A DNA stretch of 64,000 bases from positions 186,001-250,000 of the forward strand of contig NZ_ATUK01000011.1 in assembly GCF_000420165.1 (NCBI RefSeq). The letters are read 5' to 3'. A model generated the notes under the pieces. The model did no database searches. It saw only the letters and a program-made list of their open reading frames with translations, and had not been told where the DNA came from. How positions within the stretch are numbered: position 1 is the stretch's first letter; each line of letters starts with the position of its first letter. This document shows, piece by piece, positions 4,762-45,463 of the stretch. A program made the position numbers and the translations under genes. Source of the stretch: Thioalkalivibrio sp. AKL19. Lineage in GTDB: Bacteria; Pseudomonadota; Gammaproteobacteria; Ectothiorhodospirales; Ectothiorhodospiraceae.

Positions 4762-4830
4762 CACCACGAAGCGCACGAAGATACGAAGAAGGGCTAGTTA
4801 ACAGGAAGTGGGGAAAACGGGAAGATTCGT
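4762..4830 (+). repeat. Left half of dispersed CACGAAG inverted-repeat element
   Basis: Begins five bases after the CapK-like gene stop. It has three spaced ACGAAG units, then a GGGC spacer and an ACAGGAAG...GGGAAGA block. The same order (CACGAAG units, GGGC, ACAGGAAG, GGAAG) opens the copies at 56732 and 57705. The matching right half lies inverted at 5831-5890, so higBA and a short palindrome lie between the halves. Other copies have only about 70-110 bp between halves; here there are about 1 kb. Confidence 0.7.
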
Positions 4831-4986
4831 GATGGTGGTGCCGAGGCGTGCCGGGTGATCATGATAGCCCCCAGCGCGGCGCGTGCAGGTGAACCGGGAA
4901 GCCGGTGTCTCGTGCGTGGGCGTGGTTGGAGGCCGAGATGCGTTTCGCTGCGCTCAACACATCCTACCCGCTACTGGGAACCCGGC

Positions 4987-5304
4987 TCAGGCAGTTTGCT
5001 TACACGAACGGAATTCCCGGATCTGTTTCAGGTCCGCCTGTTCCGATTGCTCCGCCTTGAACAAATCCCAGCGTACCTGAAGGTTCAACCAGAAATCGGG
5101 CGACATGCCGAAAAAGCGTGCCAGACGCAGCGACGTACTTGGCGTAATGCCGCGCTTCTGGTTCACGAGCTCGTTGATGCGCTGATACGGAACATGGAGC
5201 GCGTCCGCCAACTGGCGCTGGGAGATATGCATCGGCTCCAGGAACTCTTTCGCCAGCATTTCACCGGGGTGGGTCGGCTGTCGGTGGGTAGGGATGCGGA
5301 CCAT
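4987..5304 (-). CDS. higA: HigA-type antitoxin, XRE-family regulator
   Basis: 105 residues. The sequence follows the HigA/VapI pattern closely: THPGEMLAKEFLEPMHIS, a helix-turn-helix over SQRQLADALHVPYQRINELV, then the hallmark ITPSTSLRLARFFGMSPDFW. It should bind and neutralise the HigB mRNA-cleaving toxin and, alone or with HigB, repress the shared promoter. It lies 9 bp downstream of higB. Toxin-before-antitoxin order is typical for higBA. The pair lies between the convergent CapK-like and asparagine-synthase-like genes and inside two halves of a dispersed repeat, so it may have been acquired as a unit. Confidence 0.92.
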   Translation of the reverse strand: MVRIPTHRQPTHPGEMLAKEFLEPMHISQRQLADALHVPYQRINELVNQKRGITPSTSLRLARFFGMSPDFWLNLQVRWDLFKAEQSEQADLKQIREFRSCKQTA

Positions 5305-5892: not shown

Positions 5893-7722
5893 TCATGCCA
5901 GGCGGGCGGCGGGGTGCGATTCGAGCCAGAGGTCGAGCATCATCAGGATCCAGACGAAATCGCCGTAATAGGCTGCGTGGCCCTCGCGGTGCAGTCGGAT
6001 CAGCTCGTCGATGAAGTCGTCGCGGAGGAAATTGCGGCCCTTCAGTCGCAGCAGGCTGTCGTATGCCAGCTCCCGCAGCGGCGCGTGCTCCTGCATCCAG
6101 ACGCCGAACGGCAGGCCGAAGCCGTGTTTTTTCTTGTCGATGATGGCGTCGGGCAGGAAACCGGTAAACGCCTCCTTGTAGAAGTGGCGCAGGCGGCCCT
6201 TCTTTAGTTTGAGGTCCGACGGCACGCGGCACGAGAACTCGACCAGATCGTCGTCCAGCATCGGGAAGGCGACATCGACGCCGGCCAGCTGGCACATCCC
6301 GGTCACCTTGCGCAGGTCGTTGTCGGCCAGGGTTTGCTGCCAGTCCAGGTACATCATGCGGTTGAGGGACGACGCCGATTGGGGCTGCGCGTAGATCCCG
6401 CGCATCAACTCCCAGGGGGCCTCGCGGTCCACCGCCGCGAGAAACTCCGGTGCGAACATCGTCTCCGGCGCCAGGCGGTGCAGGTAGTTGTAGGTCTGCA
6501 GTCGATCCGGCAGCGGGATACGCGCCTGTTCCACGTAGCTGCGGGCCTTGCCGGCCAGCGGCAGGCCGCGCGGCAGGCGGGTGAACAGCGGATCCAGCAG
6601 GTGGTGGCGCAGCGGCGCGGGGATCCGGCCCCAGTGTTCGAATACGCCCTGCTTGGCGTAGCGCGCATTCCCCGCGAACAGCTCGTCGCCGCCATCCCCG
6701 GCCAGTAGCCGGGTGATGCCGGCGTCGGCCGCCATGCGGGCGCAGAAATAGGCCGGCAGGGCCGACGAATTACCGAAGGGCTCGTCGTAGCTGCCGGCGA
6801 TCCGGGGCACGGCGTCGACGACGTCCTCCGGCGTCACGTAGTACTCGTGCGCCTGGGTCCCGAAGTGCCGCGAGGCGATGCGCGCGTACTCCATCTCGTC
6901 GTATCCGGGCGCATCAAAGCCGATGCTGAAGCTGTCGGCCCCGGGGTGCATGCCGGCGAGCATCCCGGCCACCGTCGAGCTGTCCAGGCCGCCGCTCAGA
7001 AAGGCGCCGGGGCGGGGGGAGTCCGCACGTCGTTCCACCGCTGCTTGCGCGTGTTCGTGCAGGGCATGTTCCAGGGCCTCGGGCGTGGCCGCACTGTCTT
7101 CCTCGAAGCGCGGGCGCCAGTAGCGGGACACCTCGGCCCGGTCGCCGTTGTGGGTCAGGCGGTGGGCGCCCGGCAGTTTCTCCAGCCCGGAGAACAGGCT
7201 GACCGGGGCCGGAAGCATGTGAAAGAAACAGTAGTGGTAGAGCCCCTCGCGGGTCACCTCGGTGGCAACCGCCGGGTGTGCGGCCACGCATCCGGCACTG
7301 GTGCCGAAGGCCACGCCGCCATCCAGGTGCGCAAAGTGAAGCGGTGTCTGGCCCAGGCGGTCGATGCCGGCCACCAGGCGGCCGTGCCCGGAATCCACGA
7401 TGGCCAGTGCATAGTCGCCGCCAACCTGCTCGAAGAGGCCGATGCCGTGCTGCCGCCAGGCCTCCAGCAGGGCTTGCGCCGGGTCGTGCTCTCGCGCCCG
7501 TCGGGCCAGGGCAGGGTCCCGCCATTGCGGATGGCCAGTGATGGCGGCAATGACGTCGGCATCCTGCGCGATCCAGCCGCCCCGGACCCGGCAGCCGCCC
7601 AGGCGGTTCGTGCATTGGGCGTCAGGCGCCCCGGAGAGCCCCGGGAGCGCCTGCCCCTGGGCCTCAAGGGCGCCGGCCGGTGATGCGGCATTCACCGCGA
7701 ACCATCCACAAAGTCCCGCCAT
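5893..7722 (-). CDS. Asparagine synthase-like protein, degenerate glutaminase half
   Basis: 609 residues from the ATG at 7722 (MAGLCGWF); a longer frame upstream has no family resemblance. The C-terminal ATP-binding half looks functional: the PP-loop is SGGLDSS (residues 243-249), followed by a normal synthetase domain. The N-terminal glutaminase half still has GGDYALAIVD and DRLGQTPLHF but lacks the catalytic cysteine at position 2 (Ala here, with a Cys at position 5) and has no recognisable HRGPDG motif. It may therefore use ammonia or another amine rather than glutamine. Asparagine synthase-like genes are regular members of exosortase EPS loci. Likely role: ATP-dependent amide formation on a sugar or carrier; the substrate is unknown. 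Confidence 0.85.
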   Translation of the reverse strand: MAGLCGWFAVNAASPAGALEAQGQALPGLSGAPDAQCTNRLGGCRVRGGWIAQDADVIAAITGHPQWRDPALARRAREHDPAQALLEAWRQHGIGLFEQVGGDYALAIVDSGHGRLVAGIDRLGQTPLHFAHLDGGVAFGTSAGCVAAHPAVATEVTREGLYHYCFFHMLPAPVSLFSGLEKLPGAHRLTHNGDRAEVSRYWRPRFEEDSAATPEALEHALHEHAQAAVERRADSPRPGAFLSGGLDSSTVAGMLAGMHPGADSFSIGFDAPGYDEMEYARIASRHFGTQAHEYYVTPEDVVDAVPRIAGSYDEPFGNSSALPAYFCARMAADAGITRLLAGDGGDELFAGNARYAKQGVFEHWGRIPAPLRHHLLDPLFTRLPRGLPLAGKARSYVEQARIPLPDRLQTYNYLHRLAPETMFAPEFLAAVDREAPWELMRGIYAQPQSASSLNRMMYLDWQQTLADNDLRKVTGMCQLAGVDVAFPMLDDDLVEFSCRVPSDLKLKKGRLRHFYKEAFTGFLPDAIIDKKKHGFGLPFGVWMQEHAPLRELAYDSLLRLKGRNFLRDDFIDELIRLHREGHAAYYGDFVWILMMLDLWLESHPAARLA

Positions 7723-11967: not shown

Positions 11968-13575
11968 TTACGGGGTCGCCGTCTCTTCCAGGGTCGAGAT
12001 CAGTGCCTTTCGGTCGGCCTTGCCATTGGCGTTGAGCGGCAGGTTGTCCAGCGAGTGGATGGCCCGGGGCACCATCACCGTGGGCAGTCGCTGGCGGAGT
12101 CGGTCGCGTATGGCCGATTCGTCCATATCTTCCGCGACCACGAAGGCCACGATCCCCGAGGCGCCGCTTTCCGTTCGTGGCCATCCGACGGCCACGGCCT
12201 GGTCCGTACCGGCGGCCTCGCGCAGTGCGGCCTCGACCTCGCCGAGCTCGATCCGCACCCCGCCAATCTTGATCTGGTGATCCAGGCGCCCGAGAAAGAT
12301 GATCGGTTCGCCCGCGGCCGGCCGGCGCACCAGGTCCCCCGTGCGGTAGTGCACGCGCCCATCGTCTTGGTGCACAAAGGCCTTCGCCGTGCGTTCGGGG
12401 TCCTTCCAGTAGCCGGGCGTCACCTGCGGGCCACTGATCAGCAGTTCGCCCTCGGCCCCGACCGGCACCTCCCGCAGGGCCTCGTCCGCCACGCGCAGGC
12501 CGACCTGGTTGCCCGGATAGCCGATCGGGACCATGCCGTGCTCGCATTCCGCCGGCGAGCGCTCCCCGTCCCAGCGGTAGTAGCAGGCATCCACCGTGCA
12601 TTCGGTGGGCCCGTAGGCATTGTCGACAATGGCATTGGGGGCGGCGGCCGCCATCGCCTCGGCCAGCTCCGCTGACAGGGCCTCCCCGCCAAAGCGGCAC
12701 AGGCGCAGATCCGGGAACCGTCCCGGCGCCCAGCCGTTGCGGCGATTCATCCCGTGCCCGGCCGAGGGGGTGATGTCGATTACCGTGAGCGCCTTGTCCG
12801 CGATGTAGCGGTTGGGGTTGAACCACTCCTTGGCGGAGGGGCAACACAGGCAGGCGCCAAAGGCCCACGACACGTACAGGTCGAACATCGAGGAATCGAA
12901 GGTGATGTCGTAGAACTGCGAAAAGCGGTCCGTCTCGCTAATGCCGAACTCGCGGTAGCGCTCCTGAGACATCTCCACGAAACGGGCTGCGTTGCGCTGC
13001 AGAACGCCCACGCCCTTGGGCTTGCCCGTGCTGCCGGAGGTGAAGAACAGGCAGGCCAGGTCATCCGGGGATACGGCTGCCGGCGCCCAGTCCGCGGGCC
13101 GATGGGAATCGCCGGCCACCCGGAAGTCGTGTCGGGGCCAGCGCGTTTGCAGGTCCTCCAGTCGCTGCGTATCGGGTAGCAGGATCAGGAACGGCCGGGA
13201 GAATGCCTGCAGGAGTTCATCGAGCCGCTCAAGACCCTGGGCATCCACCAGCAACGCTGACAGATCGGCCTGTTCGGCCATGGCCACCGTACGTTCCGTG
13301 GGAAACCCCGGGTTCAGCGGAACCAGAGCTTGGCCGGCCATCAGGGTGCCCAGAATCCCGCGGTACATCGCGAGCGAGCGCTGGGCCAGCACACCGACCC
13401 GGCGGGGCCCGGTCGGGCTCTGCTGTAGCGTGTGCGCAATGTCCGCGCCGGCTGCGAACAGCTCCTCGTAGCTCAGGACGCGACCCTCGACATCCAGGGC
13501 GGGGCGTTCCGGGAAGCGTTCGACGGAGCGCAGGAAGCCGGTCAGTAAACCCTTCGTTATCCTGGCGTTTGGCAT
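11968..13575 (-). CDS. Stand-alone amino-acid-adenylation (NRPS A-domain-like) protein
   Basis: 535 residues from the ATG at 13575, with AGGA eight bases upstream on the minus strand; the longer frame upstream shows no homology. Core adenylation motifs are all present: FFTSGSTGKPKGV (A3), FGGEALSAEL, NAYGPTECTVD (A5), GELLISGPQVTPGYW, YRTGDLVRR (A7), GRLDHQIKIGGVRIELGEVE (A8) and NANGKADRKAL (A10, catalytic Lys). No carrier or condensation domain is fused. It should activate an amino or other carboxylic acid as an AMP ester, perhaps for loading the locus ACP (8052). The order next to GNAT and ABC-transporter genes suggests acyl or aminoacyl decoration of the glycan. The substrate cannot be predicted by eye. 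Confidence 0.85.
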   Translation of the reverse strand: MPNARITKGLLTGFLRSVERFPERPALDVEGRVLSYEELFAAGADIAHTLQQSPTGPRRVGVLAQRSLAMYRGILGTLMAGQALVPLNPGFPTERTVAMAEQADLSALLVDAQGLERLDELLQAFSRPFLILLPDTQRLEDLQTRWPRHDFRVAGDSHRPADWAPAAVSPDDLACLFFTSGSTGKPKGVGVLQRNAARFVEMSQERYREFGISETDRFSQFYDITFDSSMFDLYVSWAFGACLCCPSAKEWFNPNRYIADKALTVIDITPSAGHGMNRRNGWAPGRFPDLRLCRFGGEALSAELAEAMAAAAPNAIVDNAYGPTECTVDACYYRWDGERSPAECEHGMVPIGYPGNQVGLRVADEALREVPVGAEGELLISGPQVTPGYWKDPERTAKAFVHQDDGRVHYRTGDLVRRPAAGEPIIFLGRLDHQIKIGGVRIELGEVEAALREAAGTDQAVAVGWPRTESGASGIVAFVVAEDMDESAIRDRLRQRLPTVMVPRAIHSLDNLPLNANGKADRKALISTLEETATP

Positions 13576-13788
13576 GGGTGCAGTCCTCGCTCTCCTCGGG
13601 AACCCTTTACTGCTGCGGCTCTCGGGGGTTTTTGGGTCGGCCCGGACTGGCGGTCCATCTGGCCAGTCGTACCCAGGCACGTCCACGGTGCCTTCAGCGC
13701 AGCATCCGCGAACGCCCCATCTCGTACAATCCAGACGAGAAGCCGGCCGCCAGGCCTGGCTAACGGCCGCCTGATGGCGGTTGTCTAC

Positions 13789-13807
13789 GGGGCCGCGACA
13801 AGGCCCC
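13789..13807 (+). other. Stem-loop in leader of ABC transporter gene
   Basis: GGGGCC and GGCCCC arms around a 7-base loop, about 30 bp before the transporter ATG, in the 262-bp divergent region. It could affect translation or be incidental in GC-rich DNA. I could not place a convincing promoter for either gene in this region. Confidence 0.25.
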
Positions 13808-13837
13808 TCGTGCGAAGGATCCCGATTCGGCGAAACC

Positions 13838-15640
13838 ATGCTGCAAACTCTGCACAAGCTGAATGCCCTGCTCGACCCCCGCGATCGCGGCAAGGTTGGC
13901 CTGCTGGTGATCCTGATGATCGTCACGGCCTTCATGCAGACCGCGGGCATCGCCTCGGTCATGCCGTTTCTGGCGGTGCTCTCCGACCCCAACATGGTCC
14001 ACGACAACGAAATACTTCGTCTCGCATACGAGTGGCTCGGATTCCAGTCCACGGGGGGCTTTCTCTACTTCCTGGGTGTGGCGGCGTTCGTACTCTTTGT
14101 CACCGGCACTGCGCTCCAGGCGCTGAACCAGTGGGCCATCACACGGTTTACCCACATGCAGCAGTACGAGCTGTCGCGGCGCCTGATGGGGGACTACCTC
14201 AGCCGTCCGTTCACGTTCTTCCTAAACCGGAATTCCGGGGACCTTGCCAAGACGGTCCTGCAGGAGACCACTCAGGCGATCAACGGGGCCCTGATGCCAG
14301 TCCTCCGGCTAGTCAGCCAAGGACTGCTGGCGATGTTCATCATCGCATTGCTGATCGTAGCCCAGCCCTGGCTGGCCCTGATCGTCGCGTTTTCTCTGGG
14401 GGGTATCTATGGAGCCATCTACGTTCTCGCGCGCACGTGGCTGAACCGCATCGGGCAGGATCGCGTGGAGGCGAACCGCCAGCGCTTCACCGCGGCGGCG
14501 GAGGCCTTTGCCGGCGCAAAGGAGATCCGCCTGCTGGGACGGGAGCGCGACTATCTGGAGCGCTACCGCCACCCGTCCAAGCGCTTTGCCAGCCACCAGG
14601 CGAATGCGGTTTTGCTCCAGAGCCTTCCGCAATACGCGATCGAGGCCATCGCCTTTGGGGGGGTCCTGGTGTTGGTGCTCTACCTGATGGCGGGCGACGG
14701 GGGGCTGGCCCAGGCGCTACCGCTGATCGGTCTGTATGCGCTTGCCGGGCGACAATTGATCCCGGCCTTCCAGAAAATCTTCCAACAGGTTGCCTCGTTG
14801 CGCTTCAGCACGGCAGCGGTGGACAACATTCTGAAAGACCTGGGCAACCGCCCGGAAAGCACGCCGATGCTCGCGCGCAATGACCGGCCTGAGCCCTTCG
14901 TCCCAACCCGATCCATCGAGGTGAGCGGTCTGACTTACCGGTACCCAGGGCTCGAACGCCCCGCCCTTGAAGACGTCACGCTGGAGATACCGGCTCGCAA
15001 GACGGTTGGTTTTGTTGGTTCATCCGGCGCCGGCAAGAGCACCCTGGTAGATCTTCTGCTGGGCCTTTTGGAGCCCCAGCAAGGCACCATCCGAATCGAT
15101 GGCGAACCCCTCACGCGGGAGAACGTCCGCCGCTGGCAGGCCACCCTGGGTTACGTGCCACAGCACATCTTTCTGGCGGACCAGAGCGTGGCAGCAAATA
15201 TCGCCCTGGGTGTACCGGAAGAGAAAATCGACCATAAGGCCGTGGAGAAGGCGGCCCGCCTGGCCAACCTGCACGAGTTTGTCATGCGGGATCTGCCCGA
15301 CGGGTATGCCACCGTCATTGGTGAGCGCGGCACCCGCCTTTCGGGTGGACAAAGACAACGAATTGGCATCGCCCGGGCGCTATACCGGGACCCCGCTGTG
15401 CTCTTTTTCGATGAAGCCACGAGTGCGCTGGACAACGCCACCGAGCGCGCTGTGATGGAAGCGCTACACAACCTATCCGGAGATAAGACCATCATTCTGG
15501 TCGCCCATCGGCTGAGCACTGTCCAGCCCAGCGACCAGATCTTTGTCATGAAAGATGGACGCATCGCCGACCAGGGAAACTGGTCAGAACTTTCCGAGTG
15601 CAGCGAACCATTCCGGCGCCTCGCGGCAGGTGTCCTGTAG
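13838..15640 (+). CDS. ABC transporter, fused permease and ATPase (MsbA-like)
   Basis: 600 residues from the ATG at 13838; an upstream TTG at 13781 would add an unrelated tail. The N-terminal ~330 residues form six hydrophobic segments. The ATPase half begins near IEVSGLTYRYPGLERPALEDV and has Walker A GSSGAGKST, Q-loop YVPQHIFL, signature LSGGQRQR, Walker B VLFFDEATSALD and the H-loop VAHRLS. Such homodimeric exporters flip lipid-linked oligosaccharides or export lipids across the inner membrane. In this locus it probably flips a glycolipid intermediate. It is divergent from the adenylation gene and followed by the phosphotransferase-like gene. Confidence 0.9.
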   Translation: MLQTLHKLNALLDPRDRGKVGLLVILMIVTAFMQTAGIASVMPFLAVLSDPNMVHDNEILRLAYEWLGFQSTGGFLYFLGVAAFVLFVTGTALQALNQWAITRFTHMQQYELSRRLMGDYLSRPFTFFLNRNSGDLAKTVLQETTQAINGALMPVLRLVSQGLLAMFIIALLIVAQPWLALIVAFSLGGIYGAIYVLARTWLNRIGQDRVEANRQRFTAAAEAFAGAKEIRLLGRERDYLERYRHPSKRFASHQANAVLLQSLPQYAIEAIAFGGVLVLVLYLMAGDGGLAQALPLIGLYALAGRQLIPAFQKIFQQVASLRFSTAAVDNILKDLGNRPESTPMLARNDRPEPFVPTRSIEVSGLTYRYPGLERPALEDVTLEIPARKTVGFVGSSGAGKSTLVDLLLGLLEPQQGTIRIDGEPLTRENVRRWQATLGYVPQHIFLADQSVAANIALGVPEEKIDHKAVEKAARLANLHEFVMRDLPDGYATVIGERGTRLSGGQRQRIGIARALYRDPAVLFFDEATSALDNATERAVMEALHNLSGDKTIILVAHRLSTVQPSDQIFVMKDGRIADQGNWSELSECSEPFRRLAAGVL

Positions 15641-24758: not shown

Positions 24759-24963
24759 GCAGTTCGAACCTCGCGCCGCTATGGCCGGGACGGACGGAAA
24801 AGGGATGGCTCATGGCGCGTCTTTTCGGATGTTACACGCGGCGAGAGGCATTTAAGGCCGGGCCGACGAACGGACTACTAACGCTGCGGCCGGGTCGCGG
24901 CCAGCGGTGCAAAGTGCGTGGGGTATGATCGACCCGTCAGTCTCCGAGATCCCTTGGCGCCGA

Positions 24964-26577
24964 ATGTCCTTTCTCCTGCACGATTCCGTATTGATGCAAG
25001 CCGAGCGCTCGGCGGCCGTGCCGGCCCTGCGCCATCGGGGTGCCGTCGAGGACTATGCGACGCTGGCGGCCAGTATCGGGCGCGCCGCGGCGCGCCTTAT
25101 GGGGCGCGGCCTGGAGCGTCAGGAACGGGTGGCGGTCTACCTCGACAAGCGGCCGGAGACGGTGCACGCCCTGTTCGGTGCGGCTCGCGCCGGCGGTGTC
25201 TTCGTTCCGGTTAACCCGCTACTCAAGGCGGAACAGGTGGCGCACATCCTGCGCGACTGCAATGTGCGCATCCTGGTGACCTCCGCGGACCGCCTGGCGG
25301 CACTGCGTGCGGCACTCGCCGGGTGCCCCGACCTGCACACGGTGCTGGTGGTGGGGCAGGAGTCGAGCCAGGACTCGGGTCAGGACTCGGGCGATGCCGG
25401 GGGCGGGCATGTGCGAGTGGACGCCTGGGATGCCGAGCCGGATCGCGATGGATTGAGCGGGCACCGGGTGATCGATACCGACATGGCCGCGATCCTTTAC
25501 ACCTCGGGGAGTACCGGACGCCCCAAGGGGGTTGTGCTTTCGCACCGCAACATGGTCGCGGGCGCACAGAGCGTGTCGACCTACCTGGACAACCGGCCGG
25601 AGGATCGCATCCTCGCGGTGCTCCCCTTCAGTTTTGACTATGGCCTGAGCCAGCTGACCACCGCCTTCCGGATCGGGGCCGAGGCCGTGTTGCTGAATTA
25701 CCTGCTGCCGCGCGACGTGATCCGGGCCGTGGAGCGCGACGGCATCACCGGCCTTGCGGCCGTCCCGCCTCTGTGGATCCAGCTCGCCCGCCTGGAATGG
25801 CCGGAAGCGGCACGCGCCTCCCTGCGCTATATCACCAACTCCGGCGGTGCGATGCCGAAGGAGACACTCGCGGCCCTGCGTGAACAACTTCCTCGCACCG
25901 ATTGCTACCTGATGTACGGATTGACCGAGGCATTTCGCTCTACCTATCTCCCACCGGCCGAGCTGGACAAGCGTCCCGGCTCCATGGGCCGGGCGATCCC
26001 CAATGCGGAGATCCAGGTGGTCCGCGAGGACGGCAGCCCCTGCGCCCCCGGCGAGCCGGGCGAGCTGGTGCATCGCGGTGCGCTGGTCGCCATGGGGTAC
26101 TGGAACGATCCGGAACGCACGGCGGAGCGTTTCCGCCCCGCGCCGGGCCAACCGCCCGGTGCGCCCCTGACCGAGATGGCGGTGTGGTCCGGCGATACGG
26201 TACGCATGGATGCGGATGGGTTCCTCTATTTCGTCGGGCGCCGTGACGAGATGATCAAGACTTCCGGGTACCGCGTGAGCCCCAACGAGGTGGAAGAAGC
26301 GGTCTATGCCACAGGGCTGGTGGCGGAGGCCGCCGCGCTGGGGGTGGAACACCCGGGCCTGGGGCAAGCGATCGTGCTTGTGGCCCTGCCGCAGGCCCCG
26401 GGGCTGCGGGCGGATGACCTGGTCGACGCGCTGCGCCCCCATTTGCCGGGCTTCATGCTGCCGGCGCATGTCGGTTTATGCACCGAGCCGCTGCCGCGCA
26501 ACGCCAACGGAAAGATCGACCGCAAGGCGCTTGCCAGCGAGTTTGGCGACCTGTTCCGGGAAGGGGTGCCGGCGTGA
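24964..26577 (+). CDS. Acyl-CoA ligase (AMP-forming), exosortase A-associated
   Basis: 537 residues from the ATG at 24964; the GTG at 24907 and ATG at 24925 are in frame, but the family N-terminus (FLLHDSVLMQAERSA) follows this ATG. Motifs: YTSGSTGRPKGVVLSH (P-loop), YGLTEAFRSTYLP, GDTVRMDADGFLYFVGRRDE, and catalytic Lys in NANGKIDRKAL. It belongs to the ligase family of exosortase A loci (TIGR03098, from memory). It overlaps the decarboxylase gene downstream (GTGA). It activates an unknown acid as acyl-CoA or acyl-ACP. Three 12-bp units at 25357-25392 add a Ser/Asp/Gln-rich insert. Confidence 0.9.
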   Translation: MSFLLHDSVLMQAERSAAVPALRHRGAVEDYATLAASIGRAAARLMGRGLERQERVAVYLDKRPETVHALFGAARAGGVFVPVNPLLKAEQVAHILRDCNVRILVTSADRLAALRAALAGCPDLHTVLVVGQESSQDSGQDSGDAGGGHVRVDAWDAEPDRDGLSGHRVIDTDMAAILYTSGSTGRPKGVVLSHRNMVAGAQSVSTYLDNRPEDRILAVLPFSFDYGLSQLTTAFRIGAEAVLLNYLLPRDVIRAVERDGITGLAAVPPLWIQLARLEWPEAARASLRYITNSGGAMPKETLAALREQLPRTDCYLMYGLTEAFRSTYLPPAELDKRPGSMGRAIPNAEIQVVREDGSPCAPGEPGELVHRGALVAMGYWNDPERTAERFRPAPGQPPGAPLTEMAVWSGDTVRMDADGFLYFVGRRDEMIKTSGYRVSPNEVEEAVYATGLVAEAAALGVEHPGLGQAIVLVALPQAPGLRADDLVDALRPHLPGFMLPAHVGLCTEPLPRNANGKIDRKALASEFGDLFREGVPA

Positions 26578-40574: not shown

Positions 40575-41297
40575 ATGGGCGAGGCCTTTGATGCATTCGA
40601 CGAGCGGCTGATGGAGCTGGCTCATTTTGTGGAGGAGGCCGAATCCCTGGAAAAGGGTTTGCTCGGGCTGGCCACGCTGGTGAGTTACGCCATGGAGTGC
40701 GAGCGCTGTTCGATCATGCTGCTGAAGCCGGACCCGGATGGGGGTGAGGCGCGCCTGCGTGTCCAGGCGCATTACGGGTATCTGCCCGATCAGGCCTATG
40801 ACGTGAGCCAACCCCTCGGTGCGGGGATTTCGGGGCGGGTGGCGAGTGCGCGCAAGGGGCTTCTGATTCGCGACCTGCATGCCTCCGATCTTGCTGCCGA
40901 GGCCCGGCGCGCCGCCGGCGCGGACCCGGTCGACGTGATTGCGGTGCCGGTCATTCTGGAGGGCGACTTGCTGGGCGTGATCAACATCGACAGCCCCCGG
41001 GGACGCGACCGGCTCACAGGGGAAGACCTGCGCCGCGCGTTGATCCTGGCCCTGGTAGTGGCCAAGTCGGTCCTCATCCATCGCCTAAAGGGACTGTTGC
41101 GCACCAGCTTCATGCAGCTGGCGCTGGCGCGTCAGCCGGGGGCGGCCACGGGCCCCATTACCCACGCCCCGGAGCGCGTGGCGCGGTTGCTGGCGCGCAC
41201 GCTCTACGACGAGATGAGCCGTGCCGGGTTTTCTCGCGATCATGTATTAATTGCCGCGACCGAGCTCATTGGTCAGGTGAGCGAGGACCGGGAATGA
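40575..41297 (+). CDS. GAF domain protein
   Basis: 240 residues. A GAF domain spans roughly residues 25-165: LVSYAMECERCSIMLLKPDP, QPLGAGISGRVASARKGLLIRD, VIAVPVILEGDLLGVINID. The C-terminal ~65 residues are helical (ERVARLLARTLYDEMSRAG) with no output domain I can name. It may sense a small ligand or redox state and act by protein contact. The start ATG at 40575 follows a GGGGA ribosome site. The methyltransferase gene lies 40 bp downstream. The region upstream (40443-40574) is GC-rich with no clear promoter. Confidence 0.75.
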   Translation: MGEAFDAFDERLMELAHFVEEAESLEKGLLGLATLVSYAMECERCSIMLLKPDPDGGEARLRVQAHYGYLPDQAYDVSQPLGAGISGRVASARKGLLIRDLHASDLAAEARRAAGADPVDVIAVPVILEGDLLGVINIDSPRGRDRLTGEDLRRALILALVVAKSVLIHRLKGLLRTSFMQLALARQPGAATGPITHAPERVARLLARTLYDEMSRAGFSRDHVLIAATELIGQVSEDRE

Positions 41298-41337: not shown

Positions 41338-42072
41338 ATGAAAGATGCCGGCTTCGAGCGCCGCTGGCGCCAGCGCTTCCTCCAGCGCGGTGCAAGCCTG
41401 GAGGACGATGCCGACATCGCGGGGTGGACGCGTAGCGGCCTGAGCAGCCGTGTGCGGCAGTTCGACGACCTTTGGCGACGTGCCGGAATGGCGCCCGGGC
41501 GCTGGCTGGATATCGGCTGTGGCGCGGGTACCTACACGCGGATGCTGCAGGCACAGGGTCACACGGTCTGGGGGCTCGACTATTCAACCCCTTCCCTGCA
41601 GAAGGCGCGGGATCGAAGTGACCCGGCGATTCCCTGGCTGGCGGCGGATATCAATTACCTCCCGCTGGCGGACGCCGCGTTCGACGGGGTGCTCTGCTTC
41701 GGCGTCATGCAGGCCTTGTCGGACCCCAAGCCGGCACTGGCCGAGATTCGGCGCGTACTGCGCCCCGGGGGCGAGGCCTGGATCGATGCGCTGAATCTGC
41801 GTTGCCTCCCCACGGCGGTTCGCGAATGGCGCCGGTGCCGGCGAGGGCGCCCGCTGCATCTGCGCTACGACGACCCTCAAGGTTTTCGCGCGGCAGCGGA
41901 GGCCGTCGGTCTGCGGCCCGAGGCGTTGTACTGGCTCCCTTTGGCCCCCGGCCGCCTGGCGCGCCTGCAGCCGCTCCTGGAGAACCGGGGCACCCGGGGG
42001 GTCCTGCAGGCGGTGCCGGTCGCCGGGGCGTGGCTGAGTCATTCGTTCATTCTGCGGGCGCGGCGGGTGTGA
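41338..42072 (+). CDS. Class I SAM-dependent methyltransferase
   Basis: 244 residues. Motif I is LDIGCGAGTYTRML, motif II/post-I is VWGLDYSTPSL, and the later AFDGVLCFGVMQALSDPKPALAEIRRVLRPGGEAWID follows the Methyltransf_11 pattern. It uses SAM to methylate a small molecule; which one cannot be told. It lies 40 bp after the GAF gene on the same strand. The sigma-54 promoter region of the Cys-rich gene begins 20 bp after its stop, so it belongs to a separate transcript from that cassette. Confidence 0.82.
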   Translation: MKDAGFERRWRQRFLQRGASLEDDADIAGWTRSGLSSRVRQFDDLWRRAGMAPGRWLDIGCGAGTYTRMLQAQGHTVWGLDYSTPSLQKARDRSDPAIPWLAADINYLPLADAAFDGVLCFGVMQALSDPKPALAEIRRVLRPGGEAWIDALNLRCLPTAVREWRRCRRGRPLHLRYDDPQGFRAAAEAVGLRPEALYWLPLAPGRLARLQPLLENRGTRGVLQAVPVAGAWLSHSFILRARRV

Positions 42073-42091: not shown

Positions 42092-42108
42092 TGTCGGAAA
42101 ACTTTCCA
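42092..42108 (+). promoter_or_regulatory. Possible enhancer site for a sigma-54 activator
   Basis: TGTCGGAAAACTTTCCA contains a perfect inverted repeat (GGAAA-AC-TTTCC) about 100 bp upstream of the sigma-54 promoter, the usual place for an activator site. Recalled from work on PEP-CTERM loci: their genes tend to have RpoN promoters controlled by PrsK/PrsR. Assignment of this site to PrsR is an inference. Confidence 0.5.
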
Positions 42109-42193: not shown

Positions 42194-42210
42194 TGGCACT
42201 TCGCTTGCTA
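42194..42210 (+). promoter_or_regulatory. Sigma-54 promoter (-24/-12)
   Basis: TGGCACTTCGCTTGCTA: GG at 42195-42196 and GC at 42207-42208 with exactly 10 bases between, and TGGCAC/TTGC matching the RpoN consensus. Transcription should start near 42220, giving a leader of about 108 bases to the ATG at 42329. It drives the Cys-rich protein gene and probably the whole PqqD-kinase-nucleotidyltransferase cassette. Confidence 0.75.
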
Positions 42211-42328
42211 CGTACCAAGAGAAAGCGTCTGATTGCAGTGTACCCCCCGGATCGAAGCCCATTGCGGCGTGGCCGGGTGCCCTTGCCCGGACGGCGAAAT
42301 GGCGAGGATTGACCTGGAGCAGGCACGA

Positions 42329-43099
42329 ATGAGTGATGAACACGAGCACAACGGAAATCATGGCGCCGAAGACGTAGGCGACGGCAAGCCCGGCACCCCC
42401 GTCGACCGCGGCTTGGGTTCTTCCGCCCCCCGCAGCCGGAGCCGGCGCCGCCTGACCGCGGCCGGCCTGGGTGGGGTGATGCTGGTGTCGCTCCCGGCCA
42501 AGTCGGTCTGGGGCGCTCAGGGGCAGTGCTCGCTGTCGGGCAATATCTTCTCCGCCAACGTCTCCAATATTGACCACGAGTGCACCGCGGGCGATGGCTG
42601 TACCTCGGCGTTCTGGAAGGACAACTGGGGTGCCTGGGACTGCACCGGGTATTCCCCGGGTTCCTGCATTCAGACCAGCGGGACCGACACCAATTGCCAG
42701 CGTTTTGACGCCACGGTGAGTACAGGCGGCGCGACCTCCTTCGAGGAGGTATTCGGTTACAGGCCGGAATGCCTGACCGGCACACCCTCGCTGATGGAGG
42801 TGCTCCAGGCCTGGGGCGTATGCAGGGGGTCGCTCGACTGGCATGCAGTGGGCGCCGTTCTGAACGCAGCGTGTACCTCGATCGACTTCGGCGCCTCGGT
42901 CGACGACGTGATCAAGGCCTATTCGATGGCCCGCGAGGATGTAAGCAAGCACTCGGCGGTGTCGAACGTCTTCGCCTATATGAACGAGCGCTTCTGCCCG
43001 GTCAACGGCCTCGGTGACTGTGGCGACGGTTATACGCGCAACGAGGCGGGCGAGTGCGTGGAGGTGCGGACCAACTCGACCGGCACTCTCAATCGTTGA
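42329..43099 (+). CDS. Cys-rich exported protein of unknown function, possible cassette substrate
   Basis: 256 residues from the ATG at 42329 (GGAG 11 bases upstream; an ATG ten codons earlier is weaker). Residues 1-36 are hydrophilic and Gly/Asp/His-rich. A Tat-like signal follows (SRRRLTAAGLGG, then a hydrophobic stretch, ending near residue 63, WGA-Q). The mature part has twelve cysteines (67, 85, 91, 105, 113, 123, 148, 165, 182, 223, 231, 243). GCTSAFWKDNWGAWDC plus a later SLMEVLQAW...HAVGAVLNA segment resembles the widespread secreted CTPGFWK-type domain. It is the first gene after the sigma-54 promoter, and the PqqD-like gene follows 56 bp downstream. It lacks a PEP-CTERM tail. Confidence 0.7.
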   Translation: MSDEHEHNGNHGAEDVGDGKPGTPVDRGLGSSAPRSRSRRRLTAAGLGGVMLVSLPAKSVWGAQGQCSLSGNIFSANVSNIDHECTAGDGCTSAFWKDNWGAWDCTGYSPGSCIQTSGTDTNCQRFDATVSTGGATSFEEVFGYRPECLTGTPSLMEVLQAWGVCRGSLDWHAVGAVLNAACTSIDFGASVDDVIKAYSMAREDVSKHSAVSNVFAYMNERFCPVNGLGDCGDGYTRNEAGECVEVRTNSTGTLNR

Positions 43100-43155
43100 T
43101 ATCCCGGGGCGCTGCCCACCAGCGCTCCCGGACCGGTCGGTACACGAGGCCCCCC

Positions 43156-43458
43156 TTGTCCGTTTCTGAAGAATCCTTTGCGCTGATCCCGCTGCCCGCC
43201 GCTCACGTGCGGGCATGGGACGAATCCGTGGTTGTCTATGACCAGCGCTGTGGCGAGACGCACGTGCTGCAGCCGCCTCTGATCGACATCTTCCAGGCCC
43301 TGCAAGCGGGACCGATGACGCCGGCCACCCTGTTCGAGTACCTTGAACAGCGATATGACGCCACGGAAGGGGACCTGGAGGATGCGATGCAGGCCGGCTT
43401 GAGCCAGTTGCGGCAGCATGATCTGATCCGTGTCTCCCCGGAGTCGCGGGACGCGTGA
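43156..43458 (+). CDS. PqqD-like peptide-binding protein (HPr-rel-A type)
   Basis: 100 residues from a TTG at 43156 with GAGG six bases upstream; a longer upstream frame has no homology. It shows the PqqD/RRE pattern: DESVVVYDQRCGETHVLQPPLIDIFQAL, then an acidic-helix region ATEGDLEDAMQAGLSQLRQHDLI. PqqD-like domains bind leader peptides or other polypeptides and present them to modifying enzymes. It overlaps the HprK-related kinase gene by four bases (GTGA). This is the pairing I recall under the name HPr-rel-A system, in which no substrate has been established. Confidence 0.8.
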   Translation: MSVSEESFALIPLPAAHVRAWDESVVVYDQRCGETHVLQPPLIDIFQALQAGPMTPATLFEYLEQRYDATEGDLEDAMQAGLSQLRQHDLIRVSPESRDA

Positions 43459-44360
43459 TTGCCCATGAAGACCTGAAGGCGAGGTTGCGGGACGCCGGCC
43501 TTGCCATCCAGGTGGGTCCCTTTGTGGTGCGGTTGCGGTCGCAGCTGGACCGAATCGAACGTTCCGTGGCCCTGTTCTACGACCGGCAGCTGCTGCCGGT
43601 CGATGGCGCCCCGTTCGCTGATTTTCACGTCACCCTTGCGCGTTCGTCCGGCCTGCGCACGGTCTGGCGGCCGCAGGCGCGTTTCTTTCTCGATGGCCGC
43701 TCGCCCTTTCGTCCCCTGCCACTGGCTCATGCCTATCCGCTGTTCGAGTGGGGCCTGAACTGGTGCATCGCCCAGCATGCCCATGACTACCTGATGGTCC
43801 ACGCGGCGGTGCTGGAACGCGACGGCCGCGCGCTGGTGATGCCGGGCGAGCCCGGATCGGGCAAGAGCACCCTCACCGCGGCCCTGGCTCTGTCGGGCTG
43901 GCGGTTGTTGTCGGACGAATTCGCCCTGCTTTCGCTGGAGACCGGCAAGCTGGTGGCGCTGCCGCGTCCGGTCAGTCTGAAGAATGCCGCCATCGACCTG
44001 ATCCGCGAGCGCCATCCGCGGGCGATCATCGGGCCCGCCTCCCACGACACCAGCAAGGGGACCGTGGCACATCTGAAGCCACCGGATTCGAGCATCGACC
44101 GGATGCACCAGCAGGCCGGGCCGGCCTGGCTGGTCTTCCCGCGTTTTTCTGCTGGAGGGAGCGACCGGCTGCAGCCGCTGGACCGGGCCGAGGCATTGCT
44201 GAAGCTGGTTGGCTCGTCCTTTAATTACAGCGTGGTGGGCGGTGCCGGTTTCGAGGCAGCGGCCAACCTGATCGAGCAAAGCGAATGCCTGACCCTGGAG
44301 TACGCGGACCTGGATGCCTCCCTGGGGTTGTTGAACGCGGTGGCCGGGGGCCCCGCATGA
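43455..44360 (+). CDS. HprK-related kinase A
   Basis: 301 residues from the GTG at 43455, overlapping the PqqD-like gene stop. The P-loop is GEPGSGKSTL (131-140), preceded by the conserved MVHAAVLER and followed by LLSDEFALL, the arrangement of HPr kinase/phosphorylase C-terminal domains; the N-terminal HprK domain is absent. In lasso-peptide clusters, HprK-like enzymes phosphorylate the peptide, always next to PqqD-like (B1) proteins. Here it may phosphorylate a peptide or protein bound by the PqqD-like partner. The nucleotidyltransferase gene overlaps its stop by ATGA. Confidence 0.85.
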   Translation: MIAHEDLKARLRDAGLAIQVGPFVVRLRSQLDRIERSVALFYDRQLLPVDGAPFADFHVTLARSSGLRTVWRPQARFFLDGRSPFRPLPLAHAYPLFEWGLNWCIAQHAHDYLMVHAAVLERDGRALVMPGEPGSGKSTLTAALALSGWRLLSDEFALLSLETGKLVALPRPVSLKNAAIDLIRERHPRAIIGPASHDTSKGTVAHLKPPDSSIDRMHQQAGPAWLVFPRFSAGGSDRLQPLDRAEALLKLVGSSFNYSVVGGAGFEAAANLIEQSECLTLEYADLDASLGLLNAVAGGPA

Positions 44361-45463
44361 CGCGCCCCGCGCTTGCGCAGCTGGTCGCGGTCCTGGTCCG
44401 GCCGGCAGCCGCTCGCGAGCTTTCGCTGGCGGACTGGGACTTGCTGGTCCGGGTCGCGCGGGTCGCCTCCCTGGAGGGCCGCTTGCAGGCCACGATCGAG
44501 GATGCCGGGATGTTGCCGGATGTGCCTCCGGCTCCCCGGCGACACCTGCACGCCGCGCGGGTCCTGGCGGATCGCCAGCACGCCATGGTGCGCTGGGAGG
44601 TGGCACGGATTCACGAGGCCCTGGCGCCGGAAGCGATCCCGGTGATGCTCCTGAAGGGTGCAGCCTACGTGATGGCCGGGCTGCCCAGTGCGCCGGGCCG
44701 GCAGTTCTCCGACGTGGACATCCTGGTCCCGCAGGCACGGATCCAGGAGGCGGAACAGCACCTGTTCGTTCAGGGGTGGGTCTGCGAGGGCTACGATGCC
44801 TATGATCAAAGGTATTACCGCCAGTGGATGCACGAGCTGCCGCCGCTGACGCACATGCGGCGCAAAAGCGTGCTGGATGTGCACCACACGATCCTGCCGC
44901 CAACGGCGCGGCTGCACCCCGATCCGGCTCTCCTGTGGAAGGCGGCCGTGCCGCTGGACGGCTTTCCCGGAATGTACGTTCCGGGGCCGGCCGACATGGT
45001 CCTGCACAGTGCGACCCACCTGTTTCACGACGGCGAACTGGAGAACGGCTTGCGGGACCTCGCCGACCTGGATGCCTTGCTGCGCCATTTTGCGGCGGAC
45101 GATCCACATTTCTGGGAACACCTGACCGCGCGTTCCTTCGAGATGGATCTGGCGCGCCCGCTCTACTACGCGTTGCGCTATGGCAACGAACTCCTGCAGA
45201 TCCCCGTCCCCGACTCGGCATTCCGCGCATTGGCCGTGGCGCGTCCGGCGTCGCCTCTGCGCGGACTGATGGATGGCCTTTTCCGGCGCGGGCTGAAACC
45301 GCATCACTGGAGTTGCGATGGCCGCCTGTCCGGCGCCGCTCGCTGGCTGCTGTATGTGCGTTCACACTACCTGCGCATGCCCCTGCACCTGCTGGCTCCT
45401 CACTTGATGCGCAAGGCTATCAAGGACCATCGCAAAGCCAAACGGGAAAAGTCGGAGCCCTGA
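44357..45463 (+). CDS. Nucleotidyltransferase family protein (NTP_transf_5-like)
   Basis: 368 residues from the ATG at 44357 (ATGA overlap). VMLLKGAAYVMAGLPSAPGR then QFSDVDILV carries the DxD metal site (Asp119, Asp121) of the nucleotidyltransferase superfamily; LHSATHLFHDGE follows. The family commonly occurs beside PqqD-like and HprK-like proteins, including in some lasso-peptide clusters, where it is thought to add a nucleotidyl group to a modified peptide. It is the last gene of the sigma-54-linked cassette and converges on the MaoC-like gene. The substrate here is unknown. Confidence 0.82.
   Translation: MTRPALAQLVAVLVRPAAARELSLADWDLLVRVARVASLEGRLQATIEDAGMLPDVPPAPRRHLHAARVLADRQHAMVRWEVARIHEALAPEAIPVMLLKGAAYVMAGLPSAPGRQFSDVDILVPQARIQEAEQHLFVQGWVCEGYDAYDQRYYRQWMHELPPLTHMRRKSVLDVHHTILPPTARLHPDPALLWKAAVPLDGFPGMYVPGPADMVLHSATHLFHDGELENGLRDLADLDALLRHFAADDPHFWEHLTARSFEMDLARPLYYALRYGNELLQIPVPDSAFRALAVARPASPLRGLMDGLFRRGLKPHHWSCDGRLSGAARWLLYVRSHYLRMPLHLLAPHLMRKAIKDHRKAKREKSEP

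Follow-up and report, generated by a model that had tools for sequence, protein, structure and literature searches.

A twin-arginine-bearing exported protein as the putative substrate of a PqqD-like, HprK-related kinase and nucleotidyltransferase cassette in Thioalkalivibrio

The question raised by this locus is what a PqqD-like protein, an HprK-related kinase and a nucleotidyltransferase-fold protein (the trio) act on when, as the initial annotation stated and we confirmed, the four genes of their cassette include none for a protease, a cyclase or a short precursor. The cassette lies in a 64,000-nucleotide stretch of Thioalkalivibrio sp. AKL19 (contig NZ_ATUK01000011.1, positions 186,001-250,000, forward strand), here called the window, in a genome whose nearest named relatives are T. 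versutus and Thioalkalivibrio sp. ALMg11. On the plus strand, it begins with the gene of a Cys-rich exported protein (42329-43099, 256 aa) and continues with pqqD (43156-43458, 100 aa, with a TTG start and a possible alternative GTG start at 43207), hprK (43455-44360, 301 aa) and the nucleotidyltransferase (NTase) gene (44357-45463, 368 aa); these coordinates bear out the tight spacing described earlier, with a 4-base overlap at each junction of the last three genes. The initial annotation left open whether the trio modifies the product of the first gene or a target outside the window. The near-exclusive co-occurrence described below strongly favours the first gene's product as the likely substrate.

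Co-occurrence of the exported protein and the trio

The family calls made at the outset hold, as the PqqD-like protein scores 61.9 bits against PqqD_rel (TIGR04353, cut-off 35), the kinase 391.7 bits against HprK_rel_A (TIGR04352, cut-off 200) and the fourth protein 204.6 bits against NTP_transf_5 (PF14907, cut-off 31.2). The cassette thus carries a kinase and an adjacent PqqD above the curated NCBIfam cut-offs of the HPr-rel-A system, together with an adjacent NTP_transf_5 protein. The first survey set comprised 58 relatives, and the Cys-rich protein was present in nine of them, each time within ~1.5 kb of the trio. HprK_rel_A itself was found in 20 of the 58, and the remaining 11 have a divergent relative or a leader-bearing protein at the same place. 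A genome-wide scan yielded 80 further loci (in Thiobacillus, Massilia, Duganella, Noviherbaspirillum, Methylococcaceae, Sulfuricella, Malonomonas and others), and the set after removal of duplicates held 96 trio loci, with pqqD in 94, the NTase gene in 92 and an exported-protein gene in 94. The latter lies mostly upstream of pqqD, otherwise just downstream of the NTase gene, and some loci have two tandem copies. At one of the two loci lacking it the contig ends nearby (L105), and at the other the trio is present with no recognisable exported-protein gene (L118).

A class-wide sample of 370 genomes was searched with a profile built from 54 family members, giving 51 matches, 40 of them within 3 kb of an HprK-like kinase. 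Of the other 11, seven are confined to the C-terminal domain and lie in other proteins, and four are leader-bearing proteins with the kinase on another contig. In these genomes, kinase-free matches share only the C-terminal domain, while leader-bearing ones always have an HprK-like kinase in the genome. Conversely, 36 of the 42 genomes with HprK_rel_A have an adjacent profile match; among the six exceptions the kinase is at a contig edge in two (G398, G265), and a leader-bearing protein with unrelated cargo is encoded in four (G154, G226, G116, G303). The initial annotation had asked beforehand whether the family is found almost only beside the trio, and the answer was yes at all three scales (9/9 genomes, 94/96 loci, 40/51 matches within 3 kb).

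One genome encodes a second leader-bearing protein with a GYWK domain far away from its trio (L163, genome G296, C20:42069-42596), which suggests that substrates may also be modified in trans. A sister cassette within the genus (L059:3948-4880, genome G015) has the order exported protein, NTase, PqqD-like protein and divergent HprK; the last scores 95 bits, below the cut-off, and the exported protein differs in both signal and cargo.

Leader, serine motif, cargo and enzymes

The exported protein consists of a hydrophilic N-terminus, a twin-arginine signal peptide (residues 39-62, 42443-42514), a serine motif and a folded GxWK domain. The twin arginine is invariant in 96/96 homologues and precedes a hydrophobic segment, as in substrates of twin-arginine translocation (Tat), which supports the earlier prediction that the protein is exported. 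Shortly after the signal peptide, residues 67-79 (42527-42565) read C-S-L-S-G-N-I-F-S-A-N-V-S, and the family form of this motif at the predicted mature N-terminus is C-x2-S-G-x(2-3)-S-G-N-x-S. C67 is conserved in 94 of the 96 homologues, S75 in 94, S70 in 93 and S79 in 85, and we propose the near-invariant S70 and S75 as modification sites. The cargo that follows is variable; between close Thioalkalivibrio relatives the serine motif is 100% identical, compared with 75% for the cargo. A reading as a lipoprotein, given a Cys near the cleavage site, was rejected, as this Cys lies a few residues past the predicted cut and there is no lipobox.

The cargo domain (residues 88-225, 42590-43003, GCTSAFWK...HAVGAVLNA...) is confidently modelled by AlphaFold, with a predicted local distance difference test (pLDDT) mostly >80 over residues 91-220; the leader and the serine motif are of low confidence, and the motif is probably disordered. 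Foldseek returned no PDB fold match for the domain, and searches of Pfam, NCBIfam and PDB sequences with the substrate or the 54 homologues gave nothing informative, the family being in neither Pfam nor NCBIfam. The domain is common to some unrelated large proteins: a GCTPGYWKN...HAVAALLNA version, which has no Pfam family, occurs, without a leader, towards the C-terminal end of larger proteins whose genes have no trio in the vicinity (L164:2226-3653, L165:1585-2466, L166:2690-4582). We therefore dropped the GYWK domain as a hallmark of the system, since it is found alone far from trios and is missing from some trios.

The leader behaves differently. Trios lacking a full homologue encode a leader of the form RR-x-F-L-K-G-...-L-P-A-x-x-T-L on unrelated cargo (L154-L157, L167, L173). 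Furthermore, the leaders of seven small precursors, encoded beside weaker HprK-like kinases or in the same genome as such a kinase, contain an exact YxxPx[VIA], and the recognition motif of lasso-peptide and linear polyphosphorylated peptide (LPP) leaders is [Y/W]xxPx[L/V/I/A/F/Y] (PMC13381572). As the same leader type stands on unrelated proteins and on small precursors, we conclude that the leader defines the system and that the cargo is interchangeable. A first count of this proline motif (85/112 leaders) was discarded because it included a later ASRPV segment; the restricted counts are 43/96, 6/6 and 7/7. Precursors of 57-87 aa with twin-arginine leaders were found at L158:3446-3709, L160:4976-5203 and L161:4576-4749 and 6212-6391, and orphans of the same type at L159:4140-4346 and 4792-5016 and at L162:4583-4810. 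All have YxAPx[VI] in the leader and GS soon past the cut, most adjoin HprK-like kinases under the TIGR04352 cut-off, and they look like LPP-type precursors outside Bacillota.

The PqqD-like protein is modelled as a beta-sheet with three helices, the fold of a stand-alone recognition element (RRE) of ribosomally synthesized and post-translationally modified peptides (RiPPs), and its best PDB matches are complexes of lasso B1 proteins with leader peptides (5v1v, 6jx3, 5v1u), followed by PqqD (5sxy), so the initial comparison with lasso peptides was apt. The kinase has H116, a Walker A motif GSGKST (K137) and D154-E155; aligned to the HprK structure 1jb1, the His, the Walker A Lys and the first Asp are kept and the second Asp is replaced by Glu, and these motifs are conserved in almost all of 96 homologues. 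The NTase has an SDVD metal-binding motif, and DxD is present in at least 77 of 92 homologues, a lower bound since the regular-expression scan missed 15 of the 92 proteins.

Promoter and exosortase setting

The initial annotation placed an RpoN promoter ahead of the cassette. The sigma-54 -24/-12 site TGGCACTTCGCTTGC (42194-42208, plus strand) is the one exact match to TGGCAC-N5-TTGC in the window; allowing one mismatch gives 5 matches with 5.7 expected, which is chance level, so a lone site is weak by itself. The promoter call is upheld by conservation of position, as a strong -24/-12 site occurs in 50/79 upstream regions of homologous cassettes (the 330 bases preceding the exported-protein gene), with 2.5 expected from shuffles. 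Upstream of it, 85 nucleotides before the sigma-54 box, a PEP-CTERM-box-like activator site TGTCGGAAAACTTTCCA (42092-42108, plus strand) differs by one mismatch from TGTC-N7-TTTACA. This sequence was found with at most one mismatch in 54/67 homologous promoters (0.94 expected) and exactly in 39/67, with the gap constant at 7 nucleotides and a distance to the -24 box of 77+-11 nucleotides. PEP-CTERM genes are known to be preceded by a 17-nucleotide motif 1, ending in TTTACA, ~63 nucleotides (32-92) ahead of a sigma-54 motif 2, an arrangement assigned to PrsR (PMC1569441), and RpoN dependence of one such gene has been demonstrated by experiment (PMC9850573). The cassette has the promoter architecture of this regulon, its own copy with one mismatch and an 85-nucleotide spacer. 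With the spacing used, the double motif occurs at only two places in the genome, the cassette and the XrtA locus, where it heads a unit including exosortase-associated acyltransferase genes, and the genome encodes PrsR (718 bits, cut-off 502.6). The motifs suggest that PrsR-type activation and RpoN would switch on the cassette together with the exosortase-A exopolysaccharide.

The window is itself part of an exosortase-A exopolysaccharide locus, with TIGR03097, TIGR03098 and TIGR03099 genes at 23.3-27.8 kb, and the contig also encodes XrtA, 4.0 kb ahead of the window start (C11:181198-181971; window from 186001). XrtA scores above its cut-off in 38 of the 42 trio genomes, compared with 38 of the 328 others (Fisher p=5e-26), and the same gene set is found beside slime-polysaccharide genes in many bacteria. 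Two AMP-forming ligases are encoded in the window, a nonribosomal peptide synthetase-like adenylation protein (11968-14052, TIGR01733) and an XrtA-associated acyl-CoA ligase (24907-26577, TIGR03098). Directly upstream of the cassette are a GAF-domain protein (40575-41297) and a methyltransferase (41338-42072). In Thioalkalivibrio genomes the methyltransferase gene is also found ahead of the other trio type (L040-L043, L046), so this neighbourhood predates the divergence of the two substrate types.

Candidate mechanism, rival explanations and known systems

Taken together, we think it probable, though well short of certain, that the cassette works as a self-contained unit for protein modification and export. 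Turned on through PrsR and RpoN alongside the exopolysaccharide, it would produce an exported protein with a long hydrophilic N-terminus and a twin-arginine signal peptide, the latter keeping it in the cytoplasm, and a Tat-type signal would permit modification there ahead of export. The stand-alone PqqD-like RRE would bind the twin-arginine leader, as lasso B1 proteins bind theirs, the HprK-like kinase would phosphorylate at least one serine of the motif right after the cleavage site, and the NTase-fold protein would extend the phosphate with a nucleotide or sugar. The marked protein would then leave via Tat, lose its leader and, decorated at its N-terminus, work in or on the exopolysaccharide; it is conjecture that the mark has a part in polysaccharide attachment or in floc formation.

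The chemistry in this scheme comes from published precedents. In the LPP system described in 2026 in Bacillota (LppA/LppK/LppB/LppN/LppS/LppD), the HprK-like kinase LppK is accompanied by a stand-alone RRE and an NTP transferase and polyphosphorylates core Ser3, right past a signal-peptidase-like cut (PMC13381572). In lasso peptides, PadeK phosphorylates a Ser of the precursor, and a hexose is added to phospho-Ser by PsmK and PsmN, the latter a nucleotidyltransferase homologue required for this step (PMC9266682). Since the same three activities, a leader on the substrate and near-invariant serines past the cut recur here, the same sequence of events is plausible, and the best explanation by analogy is a proteobacterial relative, in mechanism, of the LPPs. 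Like the cassette, the LPP system joins a stand-alone RRE, an HprK-like kinase and an NTP transferase; its precursors have a conserved N-terminus and a variable C-terminus, and the Ser near its leader cut corresponds in place to the conserved Ser proposed as a site here. LPP and paeninodin clusters also tend to sit in capsule loci, which matches the exopolysaccharide setting. However, LPPs are short peptides of Bacillota, whereas the cassette has a twin-arginine leader, a folded exported domain and PEP-CTERM-box regulation in Proteobacteria, and neither a dedicated SipW-like signal peptidase nor an MsbA-like exporter was found among the four genes or the flanking open reading frames (ORFs) scanned. 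The LPP leader motif YxxPxVLxHQxIxFETxxS is not matched by the window leader RRLTAAGLGGVMLVSLPAKSVWG, YxxPx[VIA] being restricted to the small precursors linked with weaker kinases. The paeninodin and pseudomycoidin clusters share an HprK-like kinase (PadeK, PsmK), a nucleotidyltransferase homologue (PsmN) and an RRE B1, but the target there is the C-terminal Ser of a small core, and their asparagine-synthetase-like cyclase and B2 protease were found neither in the cassette nor in the neighbouring ORFs scanned.

Several observations weigh against our reading. The kinase has D-E where lasso kinases have D-D, and deletion of lppN left the detectable LPP products unchanged (PMC13381572), which means that the NTase step may have no visible effect or may be of another kind. 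Only 1/54 members is matched by the Pfam TAT_signal model, the relevant segment of the window leader (GLGGVMLVSL) lacks the proline of the RRE motif, and this proline is present in only 43/96 main-family leaders. In a mirror-tree comparison, leader divergence followed PqqD no better than it followed overall trio divergence (partial r 0.12). Substrates with other cargo lack the C-x2-S-G motif and have only serines nearby, and the modification chemistry as a whole is carried over from the systems above.

The location within an exosortase-A exopolysaccharide locus, and the fact that small molecules or sugars are frequent substrates of nucleotidyltransferase folds, could also mean that the trio modifies a small molecule or polysaccharide and that the exported protein is merely co-transcribed, for example as a carrier or receptor. 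We regard this as unlikely, given that an RRE with the lasso-B1 fold has peptide-binding precedents only, that the constant part across trios is the leader and not the cargo, and that orphan leader-bearing proteins occur in genomes with the kinase on another contig. A true RiPP, in which the modified protein is cut further until a short N-terminal peptide is left and the large domain is a follower or carrier, seems to us just as unlikely; the 57-87 aa precursors that adjoin weaker HprK-like kinases and share the leader type (L158, L160, L161) and the 35-200 aa span of LPP precursors are in its favour, but the main family retains a confidently folded 130-residue domain and the cassette has no protease or peptide exporter. 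The least probable of the three is that the kinase acts as a switch in regulation or quality control, the signal region being phosphorylated just to delay Tat export until folding, with no lasting decoration. A kinase, an RRE and a Tat leader would suit such a checkpoint, and cleavage of the Lpp leader is inefficient without phosphorylation (PMC13381572); on the other hand, the most conserved serines are in the mature part, past the signal peptide, and the NTase is retained in 92/96 loci.

Compared with PEP-CTERM proteins sorted by exosortase A under PrsK/PrsR/RpoN regulation (PMC1569441, PMC9850573), the cassette shares promoter architecture, genomes and loci. XrtA substrates have a C-terminal PEP motif, a transmembrane helix and a basic tail, whereas the window protein ends in EVRTNSTGTLNR (...RTNSTGTLNR) and matches no PEP-CTERM model; it would be a second, N-terminally marked class in the same regulon. 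The leader as the conserved part, the changeable cargo, the serine motif, the PEP-CTERM-box regulation, the exosortase link and the LPP precedent go beyond the initial annotation.

In conclusion, the HPr-rel-A system has so far consisted of NCBIfam models, and we found neither its substrate or function nor a paper naming it in the open-licence literature, although an earlier description elsewhere is possible; the NCBIfam library searched has no model for the exported substrate, the leader or the serine motif. The system now has a partner that is nearly universal, a candidate for its leader and two or three for the modified serines, together with a regulator and a setting in the cell. More tentatively, and with rather less confidence than in the unit itself, we propose a general proteobacterial system in which folded proteins exported by Tat receive a phosphate-linked nucleotide or sugar at their mature N-terminus. 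An RRE-binding motif within the signal peptide would serve as the address, and the system would run parallel to exosortase-A C-terminal sorting in the same PrsR/RpoN regulon, joining exported proteins to the exopolysaccharide or tuning them for it. If true, RiPP-style recognition by an RRE and a leader would act on whole folded exported proteins, a Tat signal peptide taking the part of the leader, and a second class of marked exported protein, next to the PEP-CTERM proteins, would belong to the exosortase-A exopolysaccharide regulon.

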